Part shown: positions 18,770-33,111 of the stretch, piece by piece
Layout: every line of letters starts with the position of its first letter
How positions within the stretch are numbered: the first letter of the stretch is position 1
Assembly: GCA_902622705.1 (NCBI GenBank)
Contig: CACNQT010000012.1
Coordinates: 1-34,191, forward strand
Source: an uncultured Prochlorococcus sp.
Lineage (GTDB): Bacteria; Cyanobacteriota; Cyanobacteriia; PCC-6307; Cyanobiaceae
Direction of reading: 5' to 3'
Length of the DNA stretch: 34,191 nt
Translations under genes and position numbers: made by a program
The notes under the pieces: model-generated
The model's database searches: none
Seen by the model: the letters and a program-made list of their open reading frames with translations, nothing else
Told to the model about the DNA's origin: nothing

Positions 18770-18851
18770 GGGTCGGTGCCCGAGTGGTTAAAGGGGGCGG
18801 ACTGTAAATCCGCTGGCTCTGCCTACGTTGGTTCAAATCCAACCCGGCCCA
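18770..18851 (+). tRNA. tRNA-Tyr (anticodon GTA)
   Basis: An 82-base cloverleaf with a long variable arm. The acceptor stem pairs GGGTCGG with CCGGCCC, and A is the discriminator. The anticodon loop CTGTAAA has GTA at 18804-18806. The T-arm is GTTGG-TTCAAAT-CCAAC. CCA is not encoded. It is 10 bases before tRNA-Thr on the same strand. Confidence 0.97.
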
Positions 18852-18861
18852 CTTTAAAATT

Positions 18862-18933
<72 letters not shown>

Positions 18934-18983
18934 CTCCCGGGATAGATTGGTATCATTAAGATTACCACTATCGCACAAAGAAA

Positions 18984-19268: not shown

Positions 19269-19312
19269 AAAAAAAGGAGCTAATTGCCCCTTATTGTAGA
19301 TCGACTGTCAAT
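19269..19312 (-). promoter_or_regulatory. Repeated promoter-like element, copy A
   Basis: Read on the minus strand: ATTGACAGTCGATC, then TACAAT, then AAGGGGCAATTAGCTCC, a T-tract, and the ATG of the DUF3764 gene. The near-palindrome around GACAGTC is next to a canonical-looking -10 hexamer. The GGGGC/GCTCC arms can form a 5-bp hairpin. Five other copies lie at 22016, 24730, 25154, 26428 and 26779. Confidence 0.65.
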
Positions 19313-19702
19313 TTAAGAAATCATCTTTAAGTTTTGAATAACCAACTTAGTATTTTCTTAAAATCTTAAAAATCTAGTATTGAGCTATAAGTTATAAAAA
19401 AAAGGAATTAGCCCAAAAAGAAGAAACTTAATTAGGTTTGGAATCATACGATGTTTTAGGGTTTAATTCTCAAGAAGAACTTGAATTAGAACTTTCAAAA
19501 CTTACTAAATTTAGGCCTGAATTTGATACTGATTTGAAATAAGTTGATAGCAATTCAGAAAGTAAACGAATCATTTTATATTTTCTATCCTTTAATTATT
19601 AGTTTTGACTAAATTCTTCCAAGTCACTTGCAAAATACCCACTAAAAAAAGTAAGGATGTATCCCTACTAGCTAACTTCTATGACGATGTAAGTTTTAAA
19701 AA
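19313..19702. other. Gene-poor stretch between copy A and the hli-linked small gene
   Basis: About 390 bases with no convincing long gene. It holds one possible 34-codon reading frame (19438-19542, described separately) and otherwise AT-rich sequence in which I see no RNA gene or strong terminator. Confidence 0.5.
19438..19542 (+). CDS. Possible 34-residue small protein
   Basis: A short frame from a TTG at 19438 to a TAA at 19542 encodes LESYDVLGFNSQEELELELSK-type sequence rich in Glu and Leu, then TKFRPEFDTDLK. The regular helix-like composition looks protein-like and not random, but the start is weak and the upstream frame is closed by a stop. It could be the tail of a decayed gene. I do not recognise it. 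Confidence 0.3.
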   Translation: MESYDVLGFNSQEELELELSKLTKFRPEFDTDLK

Positions 19703-19810
19703 CTATACGAATGTAGTTGTTGTTGTGATGCTTAAAACAAATGCAACAAAGAATATGTAAGGAACCACCTTAAGGGGTACATATCCTTGTCTTTTAGATA
19801 TAAAATCCAT
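19703..19810 (-). CDS. Small single-span membrane protein behind hli
   Basis: A 35-residue frame whose ATG comes right after the TAA of the minus-strand hli gene (TAAATG), so the two are almost surely translated from one message. The sequence starts MDFISKRQGYVPLKVVPYI and has one hydrophobic segment (IFFVAFVLSI, about 19-28), ending in a Thr run. I do not know a function. Position suggests a partner of the high-light-inducible protein in the thylakoid membrane (inference). Confidence 0.6.
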   Translation of the reverse strand: MDFISKRQGYVPLKVVPYIFFVAFVLSITTTTTFV

Positions 19811-19969
19811 TTATACAAATCCCGGAATAATTTGTCCAGTTGTTAAATATGCGCCAATAAGGGCTATAAAGCCGATCATCGCGAATCTACCGTTAAGCTT
19901 CTCAGCTACGATTTTTTCCTTCTCAACTGTTTTTGTTTCTTTCATTTTTGTGGTTGGTTGCTTAGCCAA
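19811..19969 (-). CDS. hli: High-light-inducible protein (Hlip)
   Basis: A one-helix chlorophyll-binding protein of the LHC superfamily that protects photosystems under light stress. The CAB-type motif EKLNGRFAMIGFIALIGAYL, with the chlorophyll-ligand Glu, Asn and Arg, is followed by TTGQIIPGFV. The TTG start at 19969 was chosen because AGGA lies 6 bases in front of it and gives 52 residues. The ATG at 19945 (44 residues) has no such site but is also possible. The C-terminus is nearly the same as in the two plus-strand hli genes at 20439 and 20648. A 35-residue membrane protein gene follows at once. Confidence 0.88.
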   Translation of the reverse strand: MAKQPTTKMKETKTVEKEKIVAEKLNGRFAMIGFIALIGAYLTTGQIIPGFV

Positions 19970-20072
19970 GACGCTTCCTAATGCAATCTTGAAGTAAATC
20001 TAATAAAGGAAAACTATAAGCGTGAGTATAATTACTTACTCTCATACTCCCTATAAGCTGAACTTATTAAAG

Positions 20073-20222
20073 CTATCTTCCCGCCTTTGCATATTCGAGA
20101 TTTAAAAAATATTTTTCACCATCATCATTACTATCATCATCATCATCATTGAAAGAGCCAATCAAGACATAAACGCCTCCCAGTCCAAGGATCATTGATA
20201 AGTAGAGAATAGGCTCTGCCAT
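20073..20222 (-). CDS. Small membrane protein with an Asp-rich run
   Basis: A 49-residue frame (ATG at 20222). It has one N-terminal hydrophobic span (ILYLSMILGLGGVYVLIGSF, about 5-24), then a stretch of mostly Asp (DDDDDSNDD, about 26-34), then YFLNLEYAKAGR. The Asp run is encoded by GAT repeats, seen on the plus strand as CATCATC. It is divergent from the hli gene at 20439, 216 bases away, and upstream of the minus-strand hli gene. Not a recognised family; it may be a thylakoid protein co-regulated with hli (inference). Confidence 0.6.
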   Translation of the reverse strand: MAEPILYLSMILGLGGVYVLIGSFNDDDDDSNDDGEKYFLNLEYAKAGR

Positions 20223-20384
20223 TACTCAATTTTGATCAATCAAAAACAAATCCGGGGGAGCTTTTTCATATCTCCATGATCTTTTAATTATTAGGTTCAG
20301 CTTTAAAAATAAATTACTAACTGTTACGTATATGTGTCAGTATTGCTTAAATAATACCGAAATACTCATATTTATACCTTTTTA

Positions 20385-20421
20385 TTTACATTAGTTAATA
20401 AAAATGTTACGTTTATTAACA
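20385..20421 (+). promoter_or_regulatory. HLR1-like repeats upstream of the hli gene
   Basis: TTTACATTAGTTAATA (20385-20400) and GTTACGTTTATTAACA (20406-20421) each resemble the RpaB-binding HLR1 pattern (K-TTACA-WW-NN-K-TTACA) with two mismatches each in the paired hexamers. They end 17 bases before the hli start codon. In such AT-rich DNA chance matches are common, so this is tentative. Confidence 0.3.
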
Positions 20422-20438
20422 ATTAAATTATTTAACTA

Positions 20439-20648
20439 ATGGCCAATTCTTCATACATAACTACAGAATCAGGCGGAAGGCAAAATATTTTCCCAACTGA
20501 ACCTCGTCCTTATGTTGATCAATCCGTTTCTTACGATGGATATCCTCAAAACGCAGAAAAAGTTAATGGCCGTTGGGCAATGATCGGTTTAGTTGCACTT
20601 TTAGGAGCTTATTTAACTACTGGCCAAATAATTCCAGGTATTCTTTAA
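20439..20648 (+). CDS. hli: High-light-inducible protein with extended N-terminus
   Basis: A 69-residue Hlip. The N-terminal 38 residues are soluble and variable (SSYITTESGGRQNIFPTEPRPYVDQS). The single chlorophyll-binding helix is EKVNGRWAMIGLVALLGAYL, followed by TTGQIIPGIL. The Glu, Asn and Arg of ExxNGRxAM are present. Its TAA overlaps the ATG of the next hli gene by one base (TAATG), so translation is coupled. Expected location is the thylakoid membrane, bound to photosystem assembly or repair complexes. Confidence 0.92.
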   Translation: MANSSYITTESGGRQNIFPTEPRPYVDQSVSYDGYPQNAEKVNGRWAMIGLVALLGAYLTTGQIIPGIL

Positions 20649-20908
20649 TGTCTCCTCTTGCAAGTTTTTTAGCTGTAATAGTATTCTTCACAGCTATCCT
20701 TGTTGCTTATCTAACCAAGCAATTTCAAAACGAAAATTTAAACTATTTAACTCCAAATTCAATGACAAATTCAAAAACTAAAGTCAAAAAAATCGAAAAA
20801 GAAAAAGTTGTTGCAGAAACTCTTAATGGCAGATTCGCAATGCTTGGATTAATTGCTGCTGTCGGAGCCTACTTAACAACAGGCCAAATAATTCCAGGTT
20901 TCGTTTAA
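20648..20908 (+). CDS. hli: Two-helix high-light-inducible protein
   Basis: An 86-residue protein starting at the ATG that overlaps the previous stop. Unlike a classical one-helix Hlip it has an additional N-terminal hydrophobic span (SFLAVIVFFTAILVAYLT, about 6-23), a charged linker (about 40-55), then the CAB motif ETLNGRFAMLGLIAAVGAYL and TTGQIIPGFV. A longer frame in phase starts at 20573, but that start lies inside the preceding hli gene, so 20648 is preferred. The next gene's ATG follows its TAA with no gap. Confidence 0.9.
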   Translation: MSPLASFLAVIVFFTAILVAYLTKQFQNENLNYLTPNSMTNSKTKVKKIEKEKVVAETLNGRFAMLGLIAAVGAYLTTGQIIPGFV

Positions 20909-21136
20909 ATGCTTTTACTCTCTGTACCATTTTACGATTTTCCTTCTTCGCCCATACTAATAATTGGCGCGATAGGGATTGTTGTAGCACTGGCTGTATT
21001 TTTTCTAGCTTATAAAAAGTACTTTAATTCTCCATTTAACAAAGAACTTCAATTAAAGAAAAAAGCTCTATTGAAGGAGAAAACAGAACTAACCAAAAAA
21101 CTTGAAAAAATTGAACAAGATTTAAAAAATTTATAG
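20909..21136 (+). CDS. Small membrane protein with C-terminal coiled coil (hli operon)
   Basis: A 75-residue protein immediately after the two-helix hli gene (TAAATG). One membrane span is at about 16-34 (ILIIGAIGIVVALAVFFLA), followed by a basic, Lys/Glu-rich helix at about 44-75 (ELQLKKKALLKEKTELTKKLEKI) with heptad spacing. Its function is not known. The tight linkage indicates co-expression with the two hli genes, perhaps as a scaffold in the thylakoid (inference). Confidence 0.8.
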   Translation: MLLLSVPFYDFPSSPILIIGAIGIVVALAVFFLAYKKYFNSPFNKELQLKKKALLKEKTELTKKLEKIEQDLKNL

Positions 21137-21164
21137 TTAAATGAAAGTTCTGAAAGATTAGGAG

Positions 21165-21920
21165 TTGTTTATTGGAGAGCCTTTAATGACAATCCAACTG
21201 CATCAGGTGGAGGAGTTGAAGGACTTGGGAGGAGAATGCTTACTTTTAGCAGCCAACCCAGACCCAGAATTAAAAAATAAATTACTTTCAGAAATTGAAG
21301 GTATTTTTCAATGGTGCTGGAATATGGATGACAATAAAATGTTTGAAGTTTTAGAGAATCGAGGAAATGTTGCGGCAGTAGCCGAGGCAACTATTGAAAA
21401 TTATTTAGATAATCAACCTGTCTTGCAGTTTGTTTATGAACTAGCTGGAGATAGTGAGCAAAAATTTAAAGCATCAGAAATTTACTCAAAATATTGTGAT
21501 TGGTGCAATGAGTCAGGCAAGCATAAAATGACCTCTACTAACTTTGGGAAGGAACTTGGAAAAATGGAAGGTTTTAGTAAAAAGAAGAAAGAAATGGATG
21601 GTAACTATTACTTTATTAGTGAATTTAAAAAGATTAATTTGGCTGAACATTTTGGCATCTCTACTAATGCAAGGTTAAACCCTCCATCATGTAAGGTTGC
21701 TGACCCTAACCCTCCATCCTCAAAACCTTCTATTGATGAGGGGAATAATAAATCTATGGAGAGTATGGATAGTTCAAACAATAAAAATAGTTTTAAAAAT
21801 AAAAAAGAGAATATAAATAGAAAAGAATTTTCGCAGCAAACCCTCCAAACCCTCCAACCATCCATAACAGGTTCATCATGGGATACAGACTCAGACGAAG
21901 ATGACCCATATTGGGGCTAA
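21165..21920 (+). CDS. C-terminal remnant of a phage/plasmid D5-type primase-helicase
   Basis: A 251-residue frame (TTG at 21165; an ATG at 21186 with GGAG 8 bases before it is equally good). Residues about 30-70 (NPDPELKNKLLSEIEGIFQWCW) match the segment that follows the helicase core of D5-family primase-helicases. Residues about 90-145 (QFVYELAGDSEQKFKASEIYSKYCDWC, then STNFGKELGKM) match their C-terminal winged-helix domain. The tail is a Pro/Ser/Asn-rich linker (NPPSSKPSID) and an acidic end (WDTDSDEDDPYWG), as in replication primases of mobile elements. The primase and Walker-motif helicase parts are missing, since the space upstream is filled by the hli operon. I read it as a truncated relic of an integrated element. 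Confidence 0.6.
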   Translation: MFIGEPLMTIQLHQVEELKDLGGECLLLAANPDPELKNKLLSEIEGIFQWCWNMDDNKMFEVLENRGNVAAVAEATIENYLDNQPVLQFVYELAGDSEQKFKASEIYSKYCDWCNESGKHKMTSTNFGKELGKMEGFSKKKKEMDGNYYFISEFKKINLAEHFGISTNARLNPPSCKVADPNPPSSKPSIDEGNNKSMESMDSSNNKNSFKNKKENINRKEFSQQTLQTLQPSITGSSWDTDSDEDDPYWG

Positions 21921-21921
21921 A

Positions 21922-21936
21922 TCCCTCATCTAGGGA
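21922..21936 (+). terminator. Weak hairpin after the primase remnant
   Basis: TCCCT-CATCT-AGGGA forms a perfect 5-bp stem with a 5-base loop just past the TAA. No clean T-tract follows, so a terminator role is only possible. Confidence 0.3.
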
Positions 21937-22015
21937 GTGGTTAATCTCTTTAATCCTTTGATATGAATTTACTTCTGATCTTTCAGAAGCAAAATAGTGC
22001 GATAACTAGTGCATT

Positions 22016-22058
22016 ATTGACAATTAATCTAAAATAAGGGGCATTAGCTCCTTTTTTA
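22016..22058 (+). promoter_or_regulatory. Repeated promoter-like element, copy B
   Basis: ATTGACAATTAATC is followed by TAAAAT, then AAGGGGCATTAGCTCC and six T, directly before the ATG at 22059. The half-site differs from the other copies (AATTAATC in place of AGTCGATC), but the -10-like hexamer and the leader match copies A and C. Confidence 0.6.
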
Positions 22059-22442
22059 ATGTCAAATACTAAAGCCATAGAAGATTTAATTAATGGTTAT
22101 GCAACCAGTGAAGATTCTTCTTTTCTAATACCAAACGTAACTGAGGATTTTTTAGCTGTAAGACCAAGTGGAAATCCAATATCTGCTAAGGGATTAGTGG
22201 GAATGTTTGATAGTAAAGACTTAGTTGAAGAATCATCAGAACTAATCAAAACCCACAAAATTGAAATTTACGGTGAGATAGCTTACGCAGTTTTTACTTT
22301 AAATGAAATCTTCAGTTATAAAGGAAATCAAAATAAAGATCTTTCAACTTATACTTGCATTTTTAAAAATGTAAATGGTACTTGGAAGTATTCTTGGATG
22401 CAAAGATCTCAAGGCACTACTGATATGACCACATGGGAATAA
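22059..22442 (+). CDS. DUF3804-like NTF2-fold protein
   Basis: A 127-residue soluble protein with the sequence pattern of a SnoaL/NTF2-like cone fold: an N-terminal helix (IEDLINGYATSEDS), then strands ending in AYAVFTLNEIFSYKG, DLSTYTCIFKN and GTWKYSWMQRSQGT. It resembles the picocyanobacterial DUF3804 family; no function is assigned. The ATG follows the T-tract of element copy B with no Shine-Dalgarno sequence. A small signal-peptide-like remnant frame starts right after its stop. Confidence 0.7.
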   Translation: MSNTKAIEDLINGYATSEDSSFLIPNVTEDFLAVRPSGNPISAKGLVGMFDSKDLVEESSELIKTHKIEIYGEIAYAVFTLNEIFSYKGNQNKDLSTYTCIFKNVNGTWKYSWMQRSQGTTDMTTWE

Positions 22443-22535
22443 ATGAAAAGATTCCTAATCCCACTGCTAGCTGCTCAAGCATTGCCTATGAATAGTTGTG
22501 GGTTCTTTAGGTTAAAGCTAAGAATTCTTTTGTAA
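22443..22535 (+). pseudogene. Signal-peptide remnant (MKRFLIPLLAA type)
   Basis: A 30-codon frame starting at the ATG directly after the preceding TAA. The first 14 residues (MKRFLIPLLAAQAL) are the same kind of signal peptide as in the PDZ protein at 25638 and the lipoprotein at 32545, and NSCG could be a lipobox-like end. The frame stops soon afterwards and runs into the oppositely oriented gene ending at 22518. It looks like the 5' stub of a secreted-protein gene whose body has been lost. Confidence 0.5.
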
Positions 22536-22778
22536 TAATCTAATGCCAGATATTACAGAGATTATCGATGCAATACCAAGAAATATCGAATAAAAAGGCT
22601 GCAAATTAATAATGCCAAAATTACCTGTATGCCATTTGATCAACCAAAAAGCATCTACTCCTAATGGTTGAAGAAAACTATAGATAGTCCCAGATATAAG
22701 AGTAATTAATAAAGGTATTGAAGAAATTGCAGCTACTTTTCTATGTATTTTCCTTTTACTAAGTTTAAATTTTTGCAT
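22518..22778 (-). CDS. Small PepSY-helix-like membrane protein
   Basis: An 86-residue protein with two to three membrane spans (about 14-34 and 57-80, plus a weaker one between). His12 in KIHRKVAAISS and His50 in IKWHTGNFG are placed as in PepSY-associated transmembrane helices and short cytochrome-like proteins, so haem or metal binding is conceivable. Its start codon follows the DUF3721 gene's stop directly, and it is the last gene of the minus-strand operon with the CopG-like protein. That context suggests a part in metal or redox handling at the membrane (inference). Confidence 0.65.
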   Translation of the reverse strand: MQKFKLSKRKIHRKVAAISSIPLLITLISGTIYSFLQPLGVDAFWLIKWHTGNFGIINLQPFYSIFLGIASIISVISGIRLLQKNS

Positions 22779-23000
22779 TTACATTCTTAGGTACTTATGT
22801 AATTCTTTTTCATCCTCACATGGAAGCCATTTCTCTTTGTTCTTATGTGTTCCTTGACAACCAAGTTCTAATGACTTTTTTAAAGCATCTTGCTCAGAAG
22901 AATATGTTCCTTTCATATGAGCATGTGAATATGAATTGAAATTAAGAAATATAAAAATGAAAAAAGTAAGAATTTTTATCTTTCTAAAAACAAAAGTCAT
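22779..23000 (-). CDS. Secreted DUF3721 protein
   Basis: A 73-residue protein with an N-terminal hydrophobic export segment (about 8-24, ILTFFIFIFLNFNSYS) and a short mature domain: HAHMKGTYSSEQDALKKS, LGCQGTH, then WLPCEDEKELHKYL. This is the DUF3721 pattern with two conserved cysteines (C48 and C61) and a His/Met-rich beginning (H26, H28, M29). It lies between the CopG-like gene (24 bases upstream) and the PepSY-like gene. Function is unknown; a periplasmic metal-binding role would fit both residues and neighbours. Confidence 0.75.
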   Translation of the reverse strand: MTFVFRKIKILTFFIFIFLNFNSYSHAHMKGTYSSEQDALKKSLELGCQGTHKNKEKWLPCEDEKELHKYLRM

Positions 23001-23023
23001 TATTAATTAAATTAGTGTTTTTG

Positions 23024-23542
23024 TTAGGGTGAAATTTTGTCGAATATTTTTGTTTTGCCACTATTACTAAATGAAACTACTTTGTAATTTTCATAATTAT
23101 GCGAGTGTGATTCGTGAGAATGCATTTCCATTCCAGGCGAACCAAGAGGCATGCCAGGAACTGCTATACCAGAGATAATTGGTTTTTCTTTAAAAAGTTT
23201 AGTGATTGATTCAATCGGCACATGTCCTTCAATTGCGTAGTTTCCTATTTTTGCAGAGTGGCAGGACCTTAAATTATTGGGAATTTTATATTGGTTTTTA
23301 ATTCCCGAAACATCTTCAAGAATATTATCAACAACTTCTAATCCATTTTGGCGTAAATGATTTACCCATTTCTTGCAACAACCGCATGATGCTGATCTAT
23401 AAGAAACGACTTTAGGTATATCTATATTATCTTGATTTTTAGCACTACTCTTTTGGGCATTAAATATATTTACTATGAGAAATCCAGAAAATAAAAGAGT
23501 CTTTAGTAAATGCTTCTTAAAGAATGATTTCTTAAATGCCAT
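23024..23542 (-). CDS. DUF411 (CopG-like) periplasmic copper-binding protein
   Basis: A 172-residue exported protein; the N-terminus has a basic start and a hydrophobic segment at about 13-28. The DUF411 domain has the cysteine cluster SCGCC (C53, C55, C56), then LRSCHSA (C94, H95), EGHVP (H107), and AVPGMPLGSPGME with Met131 and Met138. A His-rich patch follows (MHSHESHSH, about 140-148). The family includes the copper-resistance protein CopG of Gram-negative copper operons, whose cysteines hold a copper cluster. All key residues are present. Upstream is a MauE/DoxX-like gene and downstream a DUF3721 gene. Periplasmic copper binding or redox is the likely job; copper itself is inferred from the family. 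Confidence 0.82.
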   Translation of the reverse strand: MAFKKSFFKKHLLKTLLFSGFLIVNIFNAQKSSAKNQDNIDIPKVVSYRSASCGCCKKWVNHLRQNGLEVVDNILEDVSGIKNQYKIPNNLRSCHSAKIGNYAIEGHVPIESITKLFKEKPIISGIAVPGMPLGSPGMEMHSHESHSHNYENYKVVSFSNSGKTKIFDKISP

Positions 23543-23603
23543 TTCAGTAAGGAATTCTTATTTTCAAAACTATTAATAAAATAAATGAAATTTTATAAAA
23601 TTG

Positions 23604-24056
23604 TTATTTAATCAAAATCAAAGCACTCATAATTGCCATTAAAAGATTTTCAATAAAACTAATAATTCCTAAAGGAATTTTTGTATATCCTCCAACGCAT
23701 GCACAATTTAATTTTAATTTATCTAAATAAACAGCTTTAAAAACTGATGCCATTCCAAAAATTCCTAGTATTAAAGCAATTAAAATAATTGAAGAGGGAG
23801 GTGAAGATAGTAAAAAACATAAGCCAATTAATAATTCGCAAAAAGGATAGATATAAATCCAATTTTTAAATCGAGAAGTAATTAAATCATATTTTTTATA
23901 ACTCAAACCAAAAGCTTCAATATCCATAAGCTTCAGCATCGCTAAAAGACATATTGATATGCCCATAAAAACTTGGAAGCTTTTAATCAAAATAATAGTT
24001 ATAAGAAATGAAGTACCAAATACTGCAACCAATGGTGTAAAAGACTTTAATTGCAT
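23604..24056 (-). CDS. MauE/DoxX-like redox-associated membrane protein
   Basis: A 150-residue integral membrane protein with four spans (about 8-24, 28-45, 68-105 containing two, and 128-148). The motif CACVGG (C118, C120) fits the C-x-C-x-G-G found in MauE/DoxX-type proteins that pass electrons to periplasmic thiol or cupro-proteins. It follows the 80-residue gene with a gap of 3 bases and precedes the CopG-like gene by 61. A partner role in keeping the CopG-like cysteines reduced or oxidised is a reasonable inference. Confidence 0.72.
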   Translation of the reverse strand: MQLKSFTPLVAVFGTSFLITIILIKSFQVFMGISICLLAMLKLMDIEAFGLSYKKYDLITSRFKNWIYIYPFCELLIGLCFLLSSPPSSIILIALILGIFGMASVFKAVYLDKLKLNCACVGGYTKIPLGIISFIENLLMAIMSALILIK

Positions 24057-24059
24057 TTT

Positions 24060-24302
24060 TTAACTTTTAAGAACAGAGTCACAAATACTAGATGGATTTG
24101 CCTGCTTAACTATTCTTAGCTTTTTGATAAGAGTGTCTCGATCTATTTGATGTTTTAAATATTTAATACAAAGATTCTTTTCCCTATTTAAATAAGCTTC
24201 TGTTCTTAAACTGCTAGCAATAGAGAATAAATTAATAGCAATAATCGCTAATAAAATGCTCATTGGGTATTTTTTGATAAAAGGAAGAACTTTATTTTTC
24301 AT
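24060..24302 (-). CDS. Small membrane-anchored protein with two cysteines
   Basis: An 80-residue protein with one N-terminal membrane span (about 13-31, MSILLAIIAINLFSIASSL) and a basic, probably periplasmic part carrying C45 (EKNLCIKYL) and C74 (SSICDSV). I do not recognise a family. It is the first full-size gene of the operon that goes on to the MauE-like and CopG-like genes, 3 bases before the former. The cysteine pair fits the thiol/metal theme of its neighbours. Confidence 0.7.
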   Translation of the reverse strand: MKNKVLPFIKKYPMSILLAIIAINLFSIASSLRTEAYLNREKNLCIKYLKHQIDRDTLIKKLRIVKQANPSSICDSVLKS

Positions 24303-24344
24303 TATTTATAATCTTTATTTTAATCTAAATAGCATAGCAATATT

Positions 24345-24485
24345 TTAAATTTCGCAGCCGCGATATGAAGGGTTCTCTTCACACTTAAGTTTCCAATAAA
24401 TTACTTTAATATTTGCTCCATTATCTATATCATTAATAGTCCTAAAGTATTTAGGAATGATTGTATAAGGAACTCTTTTATTCAT
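24345..24485 (-). CDS. Small basic protein upstream of the CopG-like operon
   Basis: A 46-residue frame with a clear ribosome-binding site: AGAGGAAATC before the ATG at 24485. The product (MNKRVPYTIIPKYFRTIND, then IKVIYWKLKCEENPSYRGCEI) has two cysteines near the end and no membrane segment. It is 42 bases upstream of the 80-residue gene, so it may head the same transcript. Not a recognised family. Confidence 0.6.
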   Translation of the reverse strand: MNKRVPYTIIPKYFRTINDIDNGANIKVIYWKLKCEENPSYRGCEI

Positions 24486-24549
24486 GATTTCCTCTTACTT
24501 AGTACACCTATGTTCTAACTACCAACGCATATTATTTATGAGTATCACA

Positions 24550-24624
24550 ATGTACGGTTTAAGGAAGAATAAAGTTCGGGTAGAGGACCAAATTTTGAGA
24601 CTGTTATTTAATTACCAGTCCTAG
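24550..24624 (+). CDS. Possible 24-residue small protein or decayed frame
   Basis: ATG at 24550 to TAG at 24624 encodes MYGLRKNKVRVEDQILRLLF followed by NYQS. The helix-like composition (VEDQILRLLFNY) looks like a protein fragment, but it is very short and has no clear ribosome site. Included as a weak candidate only. Confidence 0.25.
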   Translation: MYGLRKNKVRVEDQILRLLFNYQS

Positions 24625-24729
24625 GATTAATACATGGTTGTCATGAGGCAGTTGCAGGCATACAACTGAAGCCAATCATAAATTATTTGAGATAAAGTCG
24701 AGAGAGAGATATCAATCAGTAAATAGATG

Positions 24730-24750
24730 ATTGACTGTCGATATAAAAAT
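24730..24750 (+). promoter_or_regulatory. Repeated promoter-like element, copy F
   Basis: ATTGACTGTCGATATAAAAAT keeps the GAC-x-GTC core (with T in the centre) and is followed at once by TATAAA-like sequence. It lacks the GGGGC...GCTCC leader. It lies 74 bases before the ATG of the DUF3303 gene at 24825. Confidence 0.5.
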
Positions 24751-24824
24751 CTAAATTTAAAGATAAATTAAATACTTTTTAAATTATCGTTTTTAGATTG
24801 AGATTACACTATTGAATTTTAATT

Positions 24825-25145
24825 ATGGCTTACTATCACGTTCATGGAGTTATCCCAGATACTCTTTCGCAATCTGAAGGGTACAAACTCTTTGAACAAT
24901 ATATTGCTTCCGGCGCACCTAAGGATAATTTTGACGGCTTTGAATTGATAAGTAGAGTCCATGCTCCTCAAACCGGAGAAGTTTTCGTAACATGCAAAGC
25001 TGACAGTCATCTTAAAATGGCTGAACATTTTGGTATTTGGAGAGCAAAATTTGGCGTTGAATGGAATGTACTTCCTGTTTTTAATGATGAAGAAGTTATT
25101 CTAAGAAATAAACAACTTGCTGAAGAAGTAGCAGCGATGGGATAA
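24825..25145 (+). CDS. DUF3303 family protein
   Basis: A 106-residue soluble protein matching the DUF3303 pattern: an N-terminal strand (YHVHGVI), a helix, a central strand pair (FELISRVHAPQTGEVFVTCKAD), and the helix LKMAEHFGIWRAKFGVEWNVLPVF, then a charged C-terminal helix. This looks like a dimeric alpha/beta-barrel fold. Function unknown. It has its own upstream element copy F, and element copy C begins 8 bases after its stop, where the hairpin and T-run could also serve as its terminator. Confidence 0.8.
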   Translation: MAYYHVHGVIPDTLSQSEGYKLFEQYIASGAPKDNFDGFELISRVHAPQTGEVFVTCKADSHLKMAEHFGIWRAKFGVEWNVLPVFNDEEVILRNKQLAEEVAAMG

Positions 25146-25153
25146 TTTAATTG

Positions 25154-25200
25154 ATTGACAGTCGATCGAAAATAAGGGGCAATTAGCTCCTTTTTTTTTT
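25154..25200 (+). promoter_or_regulatory. Repeated promoter-like element, copy C
   Basis: ATTGACAGTCGATC is followed by GAAAAT, then AAGGGGCAATTAGCTCC and a run of ten T. The ATG of the cupredoxin gene is 28 bases further on. Position after the DUF3303 stop means the hairpin (GGGGC/GCTCC) plus T-run could be an intrinsic terminator of that gene, a leader of the next gene, or both. Confidence 0.62.
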
Positions 25201-25228
25201 AATATGTTTATATAAATTCCTTAAGTTT

Positions 25229-25633
25229 ATGCGTTCACTTTTATTATTGCCTTTGCTTTTAGGTTTTTCATTTCCAGCGAATGCAAAGTCAGAGACTTAC
25301 TTTATTGATGTTTCAGCAGAAAGTATAGAAAACTATATTCTTAGTGGTAAAGATAAAAATGGATCTGTAAGTGGGAATGATCCTACAGTTACTGTTAATA
25401 AAGGAGATACTATTGTTTTTAATGTTGATGCGTTTAGTCATCCGTTTTATATAAAGACTGAATTTTCTCGTGGAGGCGGTGATCAAGTAACCAAAGGGAC
25501 ATTATCAGGTATCCCTGGAACTCAAGATGGAAAACTATCATGGAACACAACGGGTGTATCAGCTGGGAAATACTATTATGTTTGTTCTCCTCATGCACCT
25601 TTTGGGATGGGAGGCTCAATTATTGTTGAATAA
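25229..25633 (+). CDS. Secreted plastocyanin-like type-1 copper protein
   Basis: A 134-residue cupredoxin. The signal peptide (about 1-19) ends in FPANA before KSETYFIDV. The type-1 copper ligands are all present: His71 in FSHPF, Cys119 and His122 in YVCSPH, and Met127 in FGMGG. It differs from photosynthetic plastocyanin in the region around residues 80-110 (SRGGGDQVTKGTLSGIPG). It is likely periplasmic or lumenal and may carry electrons or bind copper. The gene stands behind element copy C, and the PDZ gene starts 4 bases after its stop. It lies about 0.9 kb from the CopG-like operon. Confidence 0.88.
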   Translation: MRSLLLLPLLLGFSFPANAKSETYFIDVSAESIENYILSGKDKNGSVSGNDPTVTVNKGDTIVFNVDAFSHPFYIKTEFSRGGGDQVTKGTLSGIPGTQDGKLSWNTTGVSAGKYYYVCSPHAPFGMGGSIIVE

Positions 25634-25637
25634 ATAA

Positions 25638-26207
25638 ATGAAACGCTTACTACTCCCATTACTAGCTGCCCTCGCTTTACCAACTGCTGTTAATGCTGAA
25701 ATATCTGATGAATTACATAAAAAATGTTTAGAAGCACGAGATTATGCAGGATGTGTGAAAACTAATAAAAAACTATCTCATAAAAAAGATAAGGAAATAT
25801 CAGGGATTGGAATAAGGCTTTTTCTCAATAGTGACACTGCTGAATTAACTATTCAATCTGTAATAAATGATTCACCTGCTGCTTCAGCTGACATTAAACC
25901 AAATGATGTAATCATAAAAATAGATGGCAAATCAACTAAAGGAATGGGTATAAATGAAGCTGTTTCTCTCATAAAAGGACCAAAAGATAAGCCAATTAAA
26001 TTAGTTTTATCAAGAATTAATGAGGCAGGTAAAAAGGAAAAAATAAATGTTCGATTAGTAAGAGATACTTTTAAAGTCTCAACAAAAGACTATTTATATG
26101 AAGGTGATTTAAGGAGGCAATTAGAGTTTTTCTTTCCAGAAAATATAAAACAGATTTTTCCAGAAAATGATTCCTCGTCAAAGCTCAAAAAAGGAACTTC
26201 AATTTAA
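25638..26207 (+). CDS. Secreted PDZ-domain protein
   Basis: A 189-residue protein. Its signal peptide MKRLLLPLLAALALPTAVNA (1-20) is the best example of a type that recurs in this window. A PDZ domain follows at about 54-143 (IGIRLFLN, INDSPAASADIKPNDVIIKIDG, MGINEAVSLIKGP, VRLVRD), as in CtpA-type carboxyl-terminal proteases but without the Ser/Lys protease domain. The short N-terminal mature part has two cysteines (C30, C39), which could form a disulfide. It is 4 bases behind the cupredoxin gene, so both are likely one transcript. A role as periplasmic adaptor is inferred. Confidence 0.82.
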   Translation: MKRLLLPLLAALALPTAVNAEISDELHKKCLEARDYAGCVKTNKKLSHKKDKEISGIGIRLFLNSDTAELTIQSVINDSPAASADIKPNDVIIKIDGKSTKGMGINEAVSLIKGPKDKPIKLVLSRINEAGKKEKINVRLVRDTFKVSTKDYLYEGDLRRQLEFFFPENIKQIFPENDSSSKLKKGTSI

Positions 26208-26215
26208 ATTTCTGA

Positions 26216-26428
26216 ATGAAATGCATACTCCTAGTTGAACTTTTATTAGTTTTAATTACCATAATTTATGTTTCTCTAAACCCAATTTCAAGAATTTATA
26301 TTGCTGATTATTTAGAAAAGATATCCTTATTTTTATTTAAAACAGTAAGTGAAGAAGATTTAAATAAGTGGTATGAGAAAAGAGATAAGTATGAATTACT
26401 TAAGAAATTAGGAGGAACTGCTTATTGA
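26216..26428 (+). CDS. Small single-span membrane protein
   Basis: A 70-residue protein with one N-terminal span (about 3-22, CILLVELLLVLITIIYVSL) and a soluble, charged tail (KTVSEEDLNKWYEKRDKYELL). It comes 8 bases after the PDZ gene in the same direction. The layout, span-IY-S-x-P..., ISLFLFKTV, then an acidic stretch and Asn/Trp, resembles the oppositely oriented gene at 26468, so they may be diverged duplicates. Repeated element copy D begins at its stop codon. Unknown function. Confidence 0.65.
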   Translation: MKCILLVELLLVLITIIYVSLNPISRIYIADYLEKISLFLFKTVSEEDLNKWYEKRDKYELLKKLGGTAY

Positions 26429-26465
26429 TTGACAGTCGATCTACCATAATTAGCATTTAGCTCCT
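26428..26465 (+). promoter_or_regulatory. Repeated promoter-like element, copy D (degenerate)
   Basis: ATTGACAGTCGATC overlaps the last base of the preceding stop and is followed by TACCAT and a decayed leader (AATTAGCATTTAGCTCC). Read in this direction there is no gene right after it; it faces into the convergent gene ending at 26468. It may be a stranded or inactive copy. Confidence 0.5.
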
Positions 26466-26467
26466 TC

Positions 26468-26725
26468 TCAACCTCTTTGAGTTCCTCTCAATAATTCTCG
26501 TAATTTTAACCTAAGACTAAAAATGAAATCAGGTTCAGAAAACCAATTATCTTTATCTGTTATTTCTACAGTTTCGTTTAAAAATTTAGCGGAAGAAGTC
26601 AAAGAATTTGCAATAATTACTTTTGATTTTGGACTTGAGTAAATAAATCCAATAATTAACACAATTAAAAATATGGACCCTTTAACTTTAAGTGATTTAA
26701 TAAATTCTTTTTTTAAGTAACCCAA
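26468..26725 (-). CDS. Small single-span membrane protein, possible paralogue of the 26216 gene
   Basis: An 85-residue protein with one span (about 14-30, GSIFLIVLIIGFIYSS) followed by SPKSKVIIANSLTSSAKFLNETVEITDKDNWF and a basic end with many Leu/Arg. The order of features matches the 70-residue protein encoded convergently at 26216. No recognised family or function. Confidence 0.6.
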   Translation of the reverse strand: MGYLKKEFIKSLKVKGSIFLIVLIIGFIYSSPKSKVIIANSLTSSAKFLNETVEITDKDNWFSEPDFIFSLRLKLRELLRGTQRG

Positions 26726-26778
26726 AATAATTTAAAAATTAAATTTATTTTAGTAGTTGATATTTAAAGACAGATTAA

Positions 26779-26800
26779 ATTGACAGTCAATCTAAAATAA
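26779..26800 (+). promoter_or_regulatory. Repeated promoter-like element, copy E (perfect palindrome)
   Basis: ATTGACAGTCAAT is a perfect 13-base palindrome about a central A. It continues into CTAAAATAA, which contains a TAAAAT -10-like hexamer. There is no GGGGC...GCTCC leader. The 55-residue gene starts 22 bases further at 26823. Confidence 0.6.
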
Positions 26801-26822
26801 AAAAAGTGATAAGTTTTTAAAA

Positions 26823-26990
26823 ATGAGTAAATTTTCCTCTCAGGAAATAGAAAGTCAATATAACTTAATAAAAACGCTTTTATCTAATCCTGAAAAGTAT
26901 AAAGATGCGATAGATGCAGTTAAAAAAGATATTGCTTATATGCCACTAGAACTTAAGAAAAAACTTGAAGAAGAAAATATTACTTTATAA
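26823..26990 (+). CDS. Small helical protein
   Basis: A 55-residue soluble protein (MSKFSSQEIESQYNLIKTLL, then NPEKYKDAIDAVKKDI, PLELKKKLEEENITL) predicted to be almost all helix. It lies directly behind element copy E. Its 3' end overlaps the convergent ACR3 gene's 3' end by 11 bases. Not a recognised family, but composition and promoter context support a real gene. Confidence 0.65.
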   Translation: MSKFSSQEIESQYNLIKTLLSNPEKYKDAIDAVKKDIAYMPLELKKKLEEENITL

Positions 26991-28034: not shown

Positions 28035-28850
28035 TCAAATAATAGCCTTTCTTATTTTTGCTGTAATCCATTCACTAAAAACTACTGCCACTACTATTGC
28101 TAATAAAATAACTGATACCTTAGCCCAAGCTAAGTCTCCTATTTGAGCATCTAATTCTATCCCTATACCTCCTGCTCCAACTAAGCCAACAACAGTTGCT
28201 TCTCTTATATTTATATCCCACCTATAAATAGAAATACTCGTAAATGCTGGGAGAATTTGAGGCACTATGCCAAAGGTCATAATTTGTGCTTTATTTGCCC
28301 CTGTTGCCTCAATAGCTTCAATTTGGTTTTCATCAATTTCCTCTATAGCTTCATAAAGTAATTTTCCACAAAATCCAATCGATCTTAATCCGATAGCAAT
28401 TATGCCAGCCAAGACTCCCGGACCGACAACTGCAACCAGAAGTAATGCCCAGATTACTGAATTAATTGATCTGCTTGAAACTATGCAAAATAAGGCTAAA
28501 GGTCTTAAAAACTTTTTACTTGGGGTAGTATTGTTTGCGGATAAAAAAGCTAATGGTATTGCAATTAAAGTTCCAATCGTTGTACCAATAGTCGCGATAT
28601 TTAAAGTATCCCAAATAGGTTTTATTAAAGTGAAGAAATAATTAGTTTCTGGAGGAAACATCCTACCTAAAAGATCTAAAGCCTCATTATGTGAATCAAA
28701 TACATAAAACCAGATTGTTTTACTACTAATCAGACCGAAACAAAAGCTAAAAATTAAAGTACCTAAGAACCAACAAAGCCAGTTTTGTAAATCTCTTTTT
28801 CGATCAAATTTTTTCCAGGTTTTGTAATCCTTTTGTTTTATTATTGGCAT
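28035..28850 (-). CDS. phnE: Phosphonate/phosphite ABC transporter permease (second PhnE)
   Basis: A 271-residue inner-membrane permease of the PhnE family, with about six spans and the cytoplasmic ATPase-contact (EAA) loop IEEIDENQIEAIEATGANKAQI, followed by GIVPQILPAFTSISIYRWDINIREATVVGLVGAGGIG. That block is closely matched in the other PhnE. Its start overlaps the stop of the first phnE gene (TAATG). Two different permease subunits probably make a heterodimer. ACR3 follows. Confidence 0.92.
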   Translation of the reverse strand: MPIIKQKDYKTWKKFDRKRDLQNWLCWFLGTLIFSFCFGLISSKTIWFYVFDSHNEALDLLGRMFPPETNYFFTLIKPIWDTLNIATIGTTIGTLIAIPLAFLSANNTTPSKKFLRPLALFCIVSSRSINSVIWALLLVAVVGPGVLAGIIAIGLRSIGFCGKLLYEAIEEIDENQIEAIEATGANKAQIMTFGIVPQILPAFTSISIYRWDINIREATVVGLVGAGGIGIELDAQIGDLAWAKVSVILLAIVVAVVFSEWITAKIRKAII

Positions 28851-29647
28851 TACTTTATTAATTTCCTGAGATGACTAGATGTATATTCAACAATCATCAC
28901 GATAGAAATAATTACGATAAGAACAGCCGCTGCAGTCTCAAATTCATATCTATCAAAAGCTGTATTTAAGGTAGAACCAATACCTCCTCCCCCAACAATT
29001 CCAATTACCGCTGACTCTCTAAAATTAATATCCAATCTGTATAAAGATAATCCAATAAATCTTGGCATAACTTGAGGCTGGACACCATAATTAACCCATT
29101 GAAACCAACTGCTGCCAGTAGATTTGATTGCTTCAGCTTGGGATTTATTTATGTCTTCAATATCTTCAGATAATAATTTAGCGAAAAACCCTATTGTCGA
29201 TAAACTCAGAGTTACCATCCCAGCAAAAGGTCCAAAACCCATTAACTTAACAAAAAATATTGCTAGGATAACTTCCTGAAAACTCCTCGACAATGTGATA
29301 ACTCCTCTTGATAAGAAATAAACAAATTTAGGAGCTATGTTTTTAGCCGCCCCTAAGGATACAGGTATAGAAATAAGTATCCCCACAATAGTTGCAACAA
29401 TAGTCATCCATAGACTTTCAAAAATACCTGCCAAAATCTCATCAGATCTAGTTATAAAATCTGGAGGGAAAAAAGCAAATATAAAATTTTTACCCCTTGG
29501 GATCCCTTCAAGAATTCTTTGCCAATCAATTTCGGTAGTTAGGAAAACAGATAATAAGTAAGTACTAATTATCAAAATTAATCCAATTCTTAATAACCTA
29601 TTTTTTATTAACGGTTTTCTTTTCCAAATTACTTTCTTATCATTCAT
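28850..29647 (-). CDS. phnE: Phosphonate/phosphite ABC transporter permease (first PhnE)
   Basis: A 265-residue permease, related to its downstream neighbour across the whole length. It has the EAA-type loop IEDINKSQAEAIKSTGSSWFQ and the conserved VQPQVMPRFIGLSLYRLDINFRESAVIGIVGGGGIGS. About six spans are visible, the first at about 18-35. It starts 11 bases after the phnC stop and is coupled to the second phnE by overlapping stop and start. Confidence 0.93.
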   Translation of the reverse strand: MNDKKVIWKRKPLIKNRLLRIGLILIISTYLLSVFLTTEIDWQRILEGIPRGKNFIFAFFPPDFITRSDEILAGIFESLWMTIVATIVGILISIPVSLGAAKNIAPKFVYFLSRGVITLSRSFQEVILAIFFVKLMGFGPFAGMVTLSLSTIGFFAKLLSEDIEDINKSQAEAIKSTGSSWFQWVNYGVQPQVMPRFIGLSLYRLDINFRESAVIGIVGGGGIGSTLNTAFDRYEFETAAAVLIVIISIVMIVEYTSSHLRKLIK

Positions 29648-29658
29648 TTAATATATTC

Positions 29659-30426
29659 CTAATTTGCTACAGTTTTAGACCAGTCTTCTTCTCCATATAT
29701 TTTTGTAAGTATTGTCTCTGATAAGCCACTCGGCTTGCCATCGTAAACAATTTCTCCAGCTTTTAAACCTATTATTCTTTCTGCAAAATTCTGAGCAAGA
29801 AAAACATCATGAATATTTATAATCGCAGCAAGATTTCTTTCATTACATAACTCGCATATTAATCGCATAATTTGCCTGGAATTTTTGGGATCTAAACTAG
29901 CGGTAGGTTCATCTACTAAAAGTAACATTGGATTTTGTATCAAAGCTCTAGCAATTCCTACTCTTTGCCTCTGCCCTCCTGACAATTCATCGGCTCTTTT
30001 ATCAAGCATATGCTCTAGTCCAATTCTTTGAAGCAGACGGAATGCTTCTTCAATATCTTTTTGAGGAAATTTCCTGAAAAAACTATTCCAAAATCCTACG
30101 TAACCTAATCTGCCGGAAAGGACATTTTCCATTACACTTAATCTTTCTACCAAAGCAAATTCCTGGAAAATCATTCCAATTTGTCTTCTTATTTTTCTTA
30201 ATTTAGATTTATTTAAAGAAGTAATGTCATTTTTTTCATTAGCGAAATAAACTTTCCCTGAAGTGGGCTCAACTATTCTATTTATTGTTCTAATAAAAGT
30301 ACTTTTACCAGCACCTGAAGGACCGATAAGAGCAACTACTTGCCCATTAGGAATTTCTAGGTTTATTCCTTTAAGCGCCACTTCTCCATTTGGATAAACC
30401 TTTTTGAGGTTTATTGTTTTAAGCAT
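29659..30426 (-). CDS. phnC: Phosphonate/phosphite ABC transporter ATPase
   Basis: The ATP-binding subunit, 255 residues. Walker [10 protein letters not shown] is at 35-43, the Q-loop is in GMIFQEFAL (about 84-92), the signature LSGGQRQRV at 148-156, Walker B LLLVDEP at 168-174 and the switch His at about 206. Overall it is most like PhnC, consistent with the adjoining phnD and phnE genes. It powers uptake across the inner membrane. It starts 31 bases after the phnD stop. Confidence 0.95.
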
Positions 30427-30457
30427 TAAGTCTGATTTTATTTATGATTAAAAATTT

Positions 30458-31477
30458 TTATTTGCAATCATAAACAACACCATTAGCCTTATCTATTTTT
30501 CTAATAACATCCCAATCGTGCTTGTGACTTATTGAAATGAATCTATCAGCCTTTTTAAATTCTTTATCTAATGTTGAATTATCCCAGTTATAGGTGTAAA
30601 AAGCTTGCTTTACTTTTGCAACTACGGCTGGATGTAGATTATGAGCATGAGCATAACCTGTCGTTGGGAAGGTTTGGGATTTATAAATAGTTCTTATTTT
30701 AGAAGAATCAACAACTCCTCTTGCATCCATTCTTGTAAGAACTGAGTTAGCAATTGGTGCTACTTCATAATCTTTGTTTGCAACACCCATTATTGAATTT
30801 TGATGCTTGCCAGAAAAGACTGGAGTGAAATCTTTATTTGCCTCAAGACCAAATTCTCCTTTAAGAATTGCCGATGGTGCTTTAAATCCTGAATTAGATG
30901 TCTTAGATGTAAATGTAACTTTTTTACCTTTTAAATCTGCAGGAGAATTAATTGGGCTATCAGAAGGTACGATGATTTCCATTTCATAACCGTAAGACAA
31001 ATCTTTTTTAGCCATCATTCCAAAAGGAACTGCTCCTGCACATGCTGCTGCCACAGTATTACTACCGGTATTAATTCCTGCTACGTGAAGACGACCAGAT
31101 CTCATCGCTTCAACTTGTGCAGCATAAGATTGAACTGGTAAGAATGTTACTTTTTTACCAGTCACCTTAGACATATGTATTACAAAATCTTCCCAAACTT
31201 TTGCATAAACGGAGGGGTCTTCAACAGGTGTATATGAGAACACAATAGTTTCAGGATCTATCCATTCATCTTCGGCAAGGGGTAGATCTGCGAGAAAATC
31301 TCCATCTCGATCACAATATTTGCTGTCAACAGTATTATTTGGATTGCAATCAGATAAATCTAAATCTCCAATTAAATTATTTGATTTATTTCCACAACTT
31401 GAAATGCTTGCACTGATTATTGATAGCCCTAAGACTATCTTTAAAAAATTTCTCATTAGTTTGAATTTATTCTTCAT
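30458..31477 (-). CDS. phnD: Phosphonate/phosphite-binding lipoprotein PhnD
   Basis: The periplasmic substrate-binding protein, 339 residues. The signal segment (about 8-27) ends with SISSC, a lipobox-like cleavage site, so it is likely lipid-anchored. Ligand-loop segments of the PhnD family are seen: FSYTPVEDPSVYAKVWEDF, VQSYAAQVEAMRSGRLHVAG, and TSKTSNSGFKAPSA, with the serine/threonine cluster that contacts the oxyanion. Substrate (phosphonate, methylphosphonate or phosphite) cannot be decided from sequence by eye. No phosphite dehydrogenase (ptxD) or C-P lyase gene is in the window. It is the promoter-proximal gene of phnDCEE, divergent from a Crp-type regulator. Confidence 0.92.
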   Translation of the reverse strand: MKNKFKLMRNFLKIVLGLSIISASISSCGNKSNNLIGDLDLSDCNPNNTVDSKYCDRDGDFLADLPLAEDEWIDPETIVFSYTPVEDPSVYAKVWEDFVIHMSKVTGKKVTFLPVQSYAAQVEAMRSGRLHVAGINTGSNTVAAACAGAVPFGMMAKKDLSYGYEMEIIVPSDSPINSPADLKGKKVTFTSKTSNSGFKAPSAILKGEFGLEANKDFTPVFSGKHQNSIMGVANKDYEVAPIANSVLTRMDARGVVDSSKIRTIYKSQTFPTTGYAHAHNLHPAVVAKVKQAFYTYNWDNSTLDKEFKKADRFISISHKHDWDVIRKIDKANGVVYDCK

Positions 31478-31526
31478 TATTAACTTGCTCTAAAGAGATT
31501 AACTTTTTCGCAAAAAGAGTTTAAAT

Positions 31527-31570
31527 TCTGATTAAGTGTTTTATTTTGAGTTACTCAATTTTTAATCAGA
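31527..31570. promoter_or_regulatory. Nested inverted repeats in the phnD/Crp-regulator gap
   Basis: TCTGATTAA (31527-31535) and TTAATCAGA (31562-31570) are perfect 9-bp inverted arms 26 bases apart. Between them is TTGAGTTACTCAA (31546-31558), a palindrome with 6-bp arms about one base. They sit in the 169-base divergent gap between phnD and the Crp/Fnr-type gene, 50-120 bases from each start. This is a good place for an operator. Confidence 0.55.
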
Positions 31571-31646
31571 TTTATTAGGGAATTAAATAATTTTTAATTT
31601 ATTTTTAATTTTATAAATTTAGGGTGATTGAATTTAATAAATAAAT

Positions 31647-32980: not shown

Positions 32981-33024
32981 GATCTTATGCAGTTAATGAG
33001 AATCCCGTTCCCTATTCTCATTTC

Positions 33025-33111
33025 ATGCGTCCAAATAAATTGGATGAACGTAGAAGTAAGCTAACATTAAAAAAGAAGGTCGGATTTAAGATATATTTAA
33101 AAAATCTTTAA
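33025..33111 (+). CDS. Possible 28-residue basic peptide
   Basis: ATG at 33025 to TAA at 33111 encodes MRPNKLDERRSKLTLKKKVG then FKIYLKNL. Lys/Arg content is very high. It may be a nucleic-acid-binding microprotein or simply chance; no strong ribosome-binding site is seen. Divergent from the 56-residue gene. Confidence 0.3.
   Translation: MRPNKLDERRSKLTLKKKVGFKIYLKNL

Follow-up and report, generated by a model that had tools for sequence, protein, structure and literature searches.

A 44-base promoter-like module with an overlapping terminator-like hairpin precedes unrelated small accessory genes in Prochlorococcus

Introduction

Several described systems place short shared sequences at the borders of small genes. 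The start-associated sequences (SAS) and extended start-associated sequences (ESAS) of cluster K mycobacteriophages are short repeats right before the start codons of unrelated small genes, phage morons and lambdoid boundary sequences combine autonomous small transcription units with mosaic joints at short shared sequences, and integron cassettes with attC form arrays of small unrelated genes bordered by one shared site. Here we describe an element with a likeness to each of these, found in a 34,191-nucleotide (nt) stretch of an uncultured Prochlorococcus sp. (GenBank assembly GCA_902622705.1, contig CACNQT010000012.1, positions 1 to 34,191), which is contig 12 of a genome totalling 1,179,312 bases and is called the window below. 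The element is a module of about 44 bases, found in high-light Prochlorococcus and in a few marine viral fragments, where it heads dozens of small accessory genes that are unrelated to one another. Its sequence is that of a promoter-like cassette head overlapped by a terminator-like hairpin, and exchange of accessory genes appears to take place at this head. A preliminary description of the window, made from its letters alone, had listed six copies of a promoter-like module in front of small island genes and had proposed that they form one regulon.

The element differs from SAS and ESAS in sequence and in hosts, has a -10 hexamer, a paired hairpin and a T run, and is mainly bacterial. Unlike the morons, it is a single head found on dozens of gene clusters throughout one bacterial genus, with a promoter and a terminator that appear to overlap. 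Unlike integron cassettes, its cassettes have a promoter-like 5' end and the core is 15 bp. A closer likeness is to PRE1, a repeat of about 48 bp that was reportedly found by Coleman et al. (2006) in the genomic islands of Prochlorococcus MED4. PRE1 reportedly has the length and host of the element and likewise several copies concentrated in islands, and from these features the two are probably the same repeat. If so, the repeat was already known, and its anatomy, the hairpin pairing, the start-codon position, the joints and the phage copies are what we add. Literature searches that included the name PRE1 listed nothing on this element, and the name together with Prochlorococcus was listed for one unrelated paper.

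Results

The anatomy of the element was read from 65 copies picked by exact palindrome, so that conservation of the palindrome in this set is by choice. The conserved unit ran from -1 to +43 of the near-palindrome and consisted of GATTGACAGTCGATC, a TAnnAT hexamer, a terminator-like hairpin and a T run, with information content below 0.4 bit at -2 and beyond and mostly below 0.25 bit from +44. The near-palindrome occupied -1 to +13, the hexamer +14 to +19 and the 5' arm of the hairpin +20 to +25 or +26, followed by the loop, the 3' arm and the T run to about +43. For the statistics below, 163 loci gave 290 copies, reduced to 254 by clustering. A strict TAnnAT was observed at +14 in 176 of the 254, compared with 0 to 3 at each of nine control offsets, and a diverged copy (L282) had TATAAT at the hexamer place. 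No -35 hexamer was found 16 to 18 nt before the -10 (columns -11 to -2 held only 0.08 to 0.39 bit in the 65 copies), and the TTGACA of the palindrome lies only 7 nt ahead of the hexamer; an ordinary -35/-10 promoter pair was rejected for this wrong spacing.

Two main kinds of hairpin were observed, AAGGGGC-AATTA-GCTCCTT and AGAGGG-ATAAAA-CCCTCT, and further paired variants exist. The predicted folds had free energies of -8.7 and -8.5 kcal/mol for the two kinds, and no structure was predicted once the 5' arm was removed. The two hairpin registers are left unaligned by MAFFT, so a script counted the pairs register by register, and the search profile (R1, built from 63 copies) is a sequence-only model. 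At least 6 of the 7 hairpin pairs were present in 156 of the 254 copies, above a partner-shuffle mean of 137 and maximum of 150 (300 shuffles; the copies are related, hence the shuffle figures are not probabilities). Within registers, 307 of 371 cells paired in register 57 compared with a shuffle maximum of 272 (500 shuffles), and 608 of 693 in register 58 compared with 581 in shuffles, counts in which the choice of the best register per copy favours the observed value. A variant with the palindrome and a strong hairpin has GCTAGG or a similar sequence in place of TAnnAT (L064, L072, L105, L110, L178, L010); it belongs to a single upstream context (UP12, 4 copies) and stood mostly before a 115-residue protein family whose gene start lies about 116 nt on.

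The right end of the element was closely tied to start codons. The first ATG opening at least 40 codons fell at +43 to +46 in 95 of the 254 copies, at +36 to +57 in 124 and at 60-129 nt in 39. Within 130 nt downstream such an ATG was found for 163 of the 254, compared with 28 of the 254 when a stretch of the same length was read the other way, which is the enrichment upstream of genes that the preliminary description had proposed to test. The 163 downstream proteins formed 65 clusters, 41 of them singletons and some of these perhaps spurious open reading frames (ORFs); those identified include DUF3764, DUF3804, DUF3303, a cupredoxin, an SRAP peptidase and a DUF805 protein. At the same loci, a hairpin and T run abutted the ATG in 57 of 113 ORFs of 80 residues or more that had a palindrome near and in 12 of 676 such ORFs without one, and about 7 of these 12 appeared by eye to be decayed elements. 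The element was mostly intergenic (60 of 65 copies, by a rough gene caller); one copy (L275) sits inside a 441-residue ORF.

Sequence shared between loci started or stopped at the element, in agreement with the spreading of a cassette among accessory genes that had been proposed for the window. A set of 277 copies fell into 136 upstream clusters and 136 downstream units, with 37 upstream clusters joined to at least two downstream units and 31 downstream units joined to at least two upstream contexts. The DUF3764 cluster had 19 copies in 16 upstream contexts, all of hairpin kind I, while FAM1 and FAM2 mixed the hairpin kinds (9 and 8; 5 and 5). We compared 273 segments of 814 nt by BLAST and kept 1,993 in-register matches of at least 60 nt, dropping 1,843 out of register and 6,056 shorter than 60 nt. 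Counted as pairs, which are not independent events, 141 of the 1,993 spanned both sides, 959 were short and element-only, 21 lay wholly left and 9 wholly right, 468 were left-only and 395 right-only. The right ends of the 468 left-only matches fell at 6-13 in 4, at 14-25 in 154, at 26-31 in 16, at 32-60 in 273, at 61-100 in 10 and at -51 or before in 11, with none in -50 to +5. The 395 right-only matches started in -5 to +5 in 304, at -20 to -6 in 73, at -40 to -21 in 7, in 15-60 in 3 and at 139 or beyond in 8. Flanking sequence changes independently on the two sides of the element. The hairpin was common to 41% of gene-sharing pairs, 28% of left-sharing pairs and 15% of unrelated pairs, which suggests that part of the joints fall to the right of the palindrome, as expected from homologous exchange across the 44 bp.

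A search for filled and empty sites gave 4 matches at three sites. Locus L116 has a 322-nt unit (element and DUF3764 gene) that is missing from L042; the left flanks agree over 138 nt, the protein of the following gene differs at 3 of 86 residues, and the hairpin kind differs. This left flank also occurs at a further locus (L279), where the following gene's family is represented by a more distant member. At the second site, L293 has a 212-nt unit holding only a short ORF that is missing from L123, and the flanks agree over 80 nt to the left and 350 nt to the right; the third (L285/L278) has weaker flanks. The unit gains found leave one element copy in place. Homology switching between loci at the element, with filled and empty sites, is what this analysis adds, and together these indicate that genes are exchanged there.

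Upstream of two MED4 copies (1352485, 1361462) and of the copy at L008, the start of a signal-peptide-like ORF (ATGAAACGCTTACTACTTGC...) is cut short near the element. Such truncated ORF starts, with similar left flanks (UP0, UP8, UP21), look like earlier genes replaced behind their first codons.

The element was found throughout the genus. The window's genome had 33 matches to the 14-mer ATTGACWGTCRATC with at most one mismatch on both strands (0 for the reversed control) and 19 to the whole-element profile. The exact 14-mer was observed in 117 of 121 genus genomes, in none of which the palindrome read backwards occurred, and in 34 of a 300-genome sample of the family. Profile R1 found at least one copy in each of 61 sampled genus genomes, with 1-22 copies each. 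Applied to a family sample of 251 genomes, it found 7-19 copies in each of the 16 that belong to the genus, while 16 of the remaining 235 had 1-2 copies, most of them weak. The named genomes carrying the element are Prochlorococcus, plus two contigs of an uncultured Synechococcaceae cell, and matches to the bare 14-mer elsewhere are chance matches. Three of the 16 genomes with copies outside the genus were read. In another genus, a 3-kb locus of 53% G+C (L260) has a complete element between the end of a DUF3303-like ORF and a 389-residue ATP-grasp gene (Pfam), some hundred bases from an apparent tRNA-Leu gene read by eye. A locus of 37% G+C (L337, genome G317) has a diverged palindrome and full leader ahead of a signal-peptide ORF, and one of 36% G+C (L336, G212) has palindrome and hexamer and no hairpin.

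In MED4 (G015), 6 of the 16 profile matches lie at 347-360 kb and 8 at 1347-1362 kb, and the non-coding RNAs adjoining these clusters are assigned to islands 1 and 5 in Table 1 of PMC2518516. The Yfr motif in this genome falls inside the published Yfr10 interval. Yfr11 (358606-358754, minus strand) ends 15 nt before a copy, at what appears to be its own terminator. The copy at 123165, outside both clusters, is intergenic and lies 124 nt before a 323-residue ORF.

A profile scan of 28 viral stretches found full copies in three (three copies in L225 and one each in L232 and L186), and of the 77 viral stretches that hold the bare 14-mer, most appear to do so by chance. By PHROGs, the products of L225 include a UvsX-like recombinase and a DnaB-like helicase, and those of L232 include an exonuclease and PhoH. 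No PHROG matched either of the two L186 proteins tested. In L225 one copy stands before a DUF3764 gene, another before a short ORF with a cupin gene behind it, and the third before uvsX. The ATG adjacent to the third copy is out of frame with uvsX, whose own ATG comes 22 nt later, and the joint lies at the uvsX start, where the 16 relatives listed also differ upstream. The phoH product of L232 was matched by the nine relatives listed only over residues 1-227 of 234, departing just before the element, so this contig could be a misassembly. Deposited phages (50,697 records, two consensus queries) gave no place covering 80% of the element; the matches were short or weak, and the one cyanobacterial phage among those listed was Microcystis phage Mel-JY01, with 18 nt.

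Discussion

The reading towards which we lean, on balance, is that small accessory genes have in the element a short, portable 5' head, in which a promoter and a terminator overlap and at which cassettes are exchanged. The near-palindrome is probably bound by a protein. From a -10 at +14 to +19, transcription is predicted to start about 7 nt on, near +26 or +27, at or next to the first base of the loop in either kind of hairpin; the predicted start falls in the loop because the 5' arm fills the -6 to -1 region. Since the fold needs its 5' arm, the cassette's own mRNA, lacking that arm, would escape termination, while read-through RNA from upstream would include the two arms and end in the T run ahead of the ATG. 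A cassette would in this way have a promoter of its own and be shielded from transcription of the gene to its left. With the same 15-44 bases at every cassette border, cassettes could be inserted, deleted or exchanged there, and recombination would carry them among genomic islands, occasionally to other genera, and into some phages. To our reading, the modelled layout suggests a new arrangement of overlapping terminator and promoter with the start in the loop.

One of the most abundant photosynthetic organisms holds on to a small genome and still exchanges many accessory genes, and how it does so is an open question. A common head by which any small gene is expressed, insulated and made exchangeable would be a concrete mechanism, testable on existing transcript maps. 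The element links host islands to phages, and its 44-bp profile provides a search handle for new accessory genes, many of which are too short for annotation.

Several observations weigh against a portable head of this kind. In 91 of the 254 copies no ATG opening 40 codons was found within 130 nt, a variant lineage has the palindrome and hairpin but GCTAGG in place of TAnnAT, and window copies E and F have no G+C-rich hairpin. BLAST matches of the hairpin to annotated phage terminators were weak (H4, H6, H68, E about 3), and the joint counts come from pairs that are not independent. A hairpin acting only as a terminator should decay behind divergent neighbours, but stems were kept in 9 of 10 such copies; the figures were 54 of 70 where the neighbour is co-directional and 24 of 36 where there is neither type of neighbour.

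Because stems persist at a similar rate where no co-directional neighbour is present, a role of the hairpin in the leader of the cassette's own mRNA, as a promoter-proximal attenuator or a stabilising 5' stem with the start upstream of the 5' arm, is a live rival, which we nonetheless consider unlikely. Its retention behind divergent genes fits such a leader, as does its closer tie to a following ATG: by counts derived from fractions, stems were kept in 46 of 63 and 44 of 56 copies with an ATG and in 39 of 81 and 21 of 44 without, with or without a same-strand upstream gene. A leader of this kind needs a start at or before about +20, however, which is right at the hexamer, and no other well conserved -10 was found upstream; a full terminator at +20 would also shut the gene off unless relieved.

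The regulon of the preliminary description would have the palindrome as operator of one dimeric transcription factor, with regulation alone conserving the element and with the hairpin and shuffling as side effects. A near-palindrome beside a -10 at one spacing, present in all 61 sampled genus genomes, is what such a regulon would give. The core of copy E is symmetric, as had been described, but the consensus is asymmetric at one base (GATTGAC/GTCGATC; 59 copies with G and 6 with A). The sole candidate regulator tested, a MarR protein, had matches in only 3 of 16 genus genomes of one sample, and regulation leaves the hairpin pairing and the sharp left border of shared sequence unexplained. We regard the regulon as a doubtful explanation.

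PMM0363, as PMC9692554 names this MarR protein from MED4 island 1, was equated with an ORF (L534 2391-2822) by place and MarR domain, and was rejected as a universal regulator on these matches. A search for PF12802 in 6 genomes was empty, although the MarR protein passes the cut-off alone, which marks a limit of sensitivity. A relative of the MarR gene is present in the window's genome (G000 contig 17, 13521-13760). An operator of CRP/FNR type was rejected because the half-sites are too close.

Another explanation makes the 15-bp near-palindrome the crossover core of a site-specific recombinase, with units of leader and gene as integron-like array cassettes that have their own promoter. Pairs sharing the left flank with different genes (102) were 0.96 identical at -1 and at background at +17, +21, +26, +30 and +32, the positions at which gene-sharing pairs (187) were above background, as a joint in the core would give; however, this pair set was selected on the left flank, and the left-sharing pairs exceed background at +20, +28, +33, +36 and +42. 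Both hairpin kinds occur in the left context UP0 (9 copies of kind I, 8 of kind II and 2 unclassed), and the kind is constant in some gene families such as FAM0 (19 of 19), but FAM1 and FAM2 mix them. The filled and empty sites agree with such cassettes, as does the pair L116/L042, alike in left flank and gene but not in hairpin kind, whereas the sharing of hairpins by left-sharing pairs would place some joints right of the palindrome. PF00589 was searched in 14 genomes, and MED4 gave one match only, in a frame of 389-398 residues of a kind present in each of 11 genus genomes searched. We consider a recombinase core quite improbable.

A broader conjecture has the near-palindrome as the exchange site of an unrecognised cassette system. 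Single-gene cassettes bearing promoter and terminator would recombine at the 15-bp core, form island arrays and ride in phages, each expressed and insulated anywhere since the left terminator and the newcomer's promoter share bases; we offer this tentatively and would not expect it to hold. Finally, a transposed miniature element (of the miniature inverted-repeat transposable element or repetitive extragenic palindrome kind) bringing a promoter by chance would account for 1-22 mostly intergenic copies per genome, but random insertion is unlike a right end that abuts the start codons of many protein clusters or flanks that change independently, and we think it very unlikely.

Copies and neighbouring genes in the window

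All six copies of the preliminary description were present (Table 1). Nine matches to the 14-mer with at most one mismatch were found in the window on both strands, compared with a shuffle mean of 0.06, and none of 100 shuffles reached 9. A looser pattern with at most three mismatches gave 21 matches compared with 13.8 expected (11 of 100 shuffles reached 21), an excess that is not significant. Copies A, C, D and E match the 14-mer exactly, with one mismatch in F and two in B. The hexamer said to follow the core at once was strict TAnnAT in A, B, D and E and off-pattern in C and F. A feature beyond those in the preliminary description was a 7-bp hairpin and T run after the hexamer in copies A, B and C, followed directly by an ATG in A and B; these were three of the six matches in a scan for hairpin/T-run terminators, for which 3.8 were expected by chance.

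Table 1. Element copies in the window and the genes behind them.
Feature	Position	Strand	Details
Copy A, complete	19269..19312	-	palindrome 19312-19299, TACAAT 19298-19293, hairpin 19292-19274, T run, ATG 19268; profile R1 E 5e-14
Copy B	22016..22057	+	ATTGACAATTAATC, TAAAAT 22030-22035, hairpin 22036-22053, T run, ATG 22059; R1 E 3.8e-9
Copy C	25153..25197	+	palindrome 25154-25167, GAAAAT, hairpin 25174-25192, T run; R1 E 3.1e-12
Copy D	26427..26466	+	palindrome 26428-26441, TACCAT, degenerate hairpin; R1 E 4.5e-8
Copy E	26779..26822	+	symmetric ATTGACAGTCAAT core, TAAAAT 26793-26798, ATG 26823; R1 E 1.7e-5 over 26779-26802
Copy F	24730..24749	+	ATTGACTGTCGATA, TAAAAA, no hairpin; absent from profile R1 matches
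Gene of copy A, DUF3764, 94 residues	18984..19268	-	Pfam PF12594 E 5e-33
Gene of copy B, DUF3804, 127 residues	22059..22442	+	Pfam PF12707 E 1.5e-50
Gene of copy F, DUF3303, 106 residues	24825..25145	+	Pfam PF11746 E 1e-11; start 95 nt downstream of copy F
Gene of copy C, plastocyanin/azurin-family cupredoxin, 134 residues	25229..25633	+	Pfam PF00127 E 1.9e-7; start 75 nt past palindrome start
Gene of copy E, 55 residues, no Pfam family	26823..26990	+	ORF list, Pfam scan

Five of the six copies (A, B, C, E and F) were followed by a same-strand gene, as had been described, and Pfam identified the products behind A, B, C and F. Copy D lies directly behind a 70-residue ORF (26216-26428), and the window's ORF list has no same-strand ORF of at least 40 residues close behind it. 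The 3' end of the DUF3303 gene, just before copy C, represents the second largest left-neighbour class of the element (UP1, 14 copies).

A search of the window at the Rfam gathering thresholds found two tRNAs and a Glutamine-II riboswitch aptamer (32996-33053, minus strand, RF01704, 55.4 bits) and nothing at the element. Minus-strand genes at 22518-24302, between copies B and F, include those for a DUF411 protein and a MauE-family protein, and no copy was found before them. A 251-residue ORF at 21165-21920 has a poxvirus D5-like domain (PF03288, 1.7e-7) and is perhaps a mobile-element remnant. Genes for a phosphonate-type ABC transporter and a divergent Crp-like regulator gene occupy 28035-32183 (Pfam), and tRNA-Tyr and tRNA-Thr at 18770-18934 flank one side of the region.

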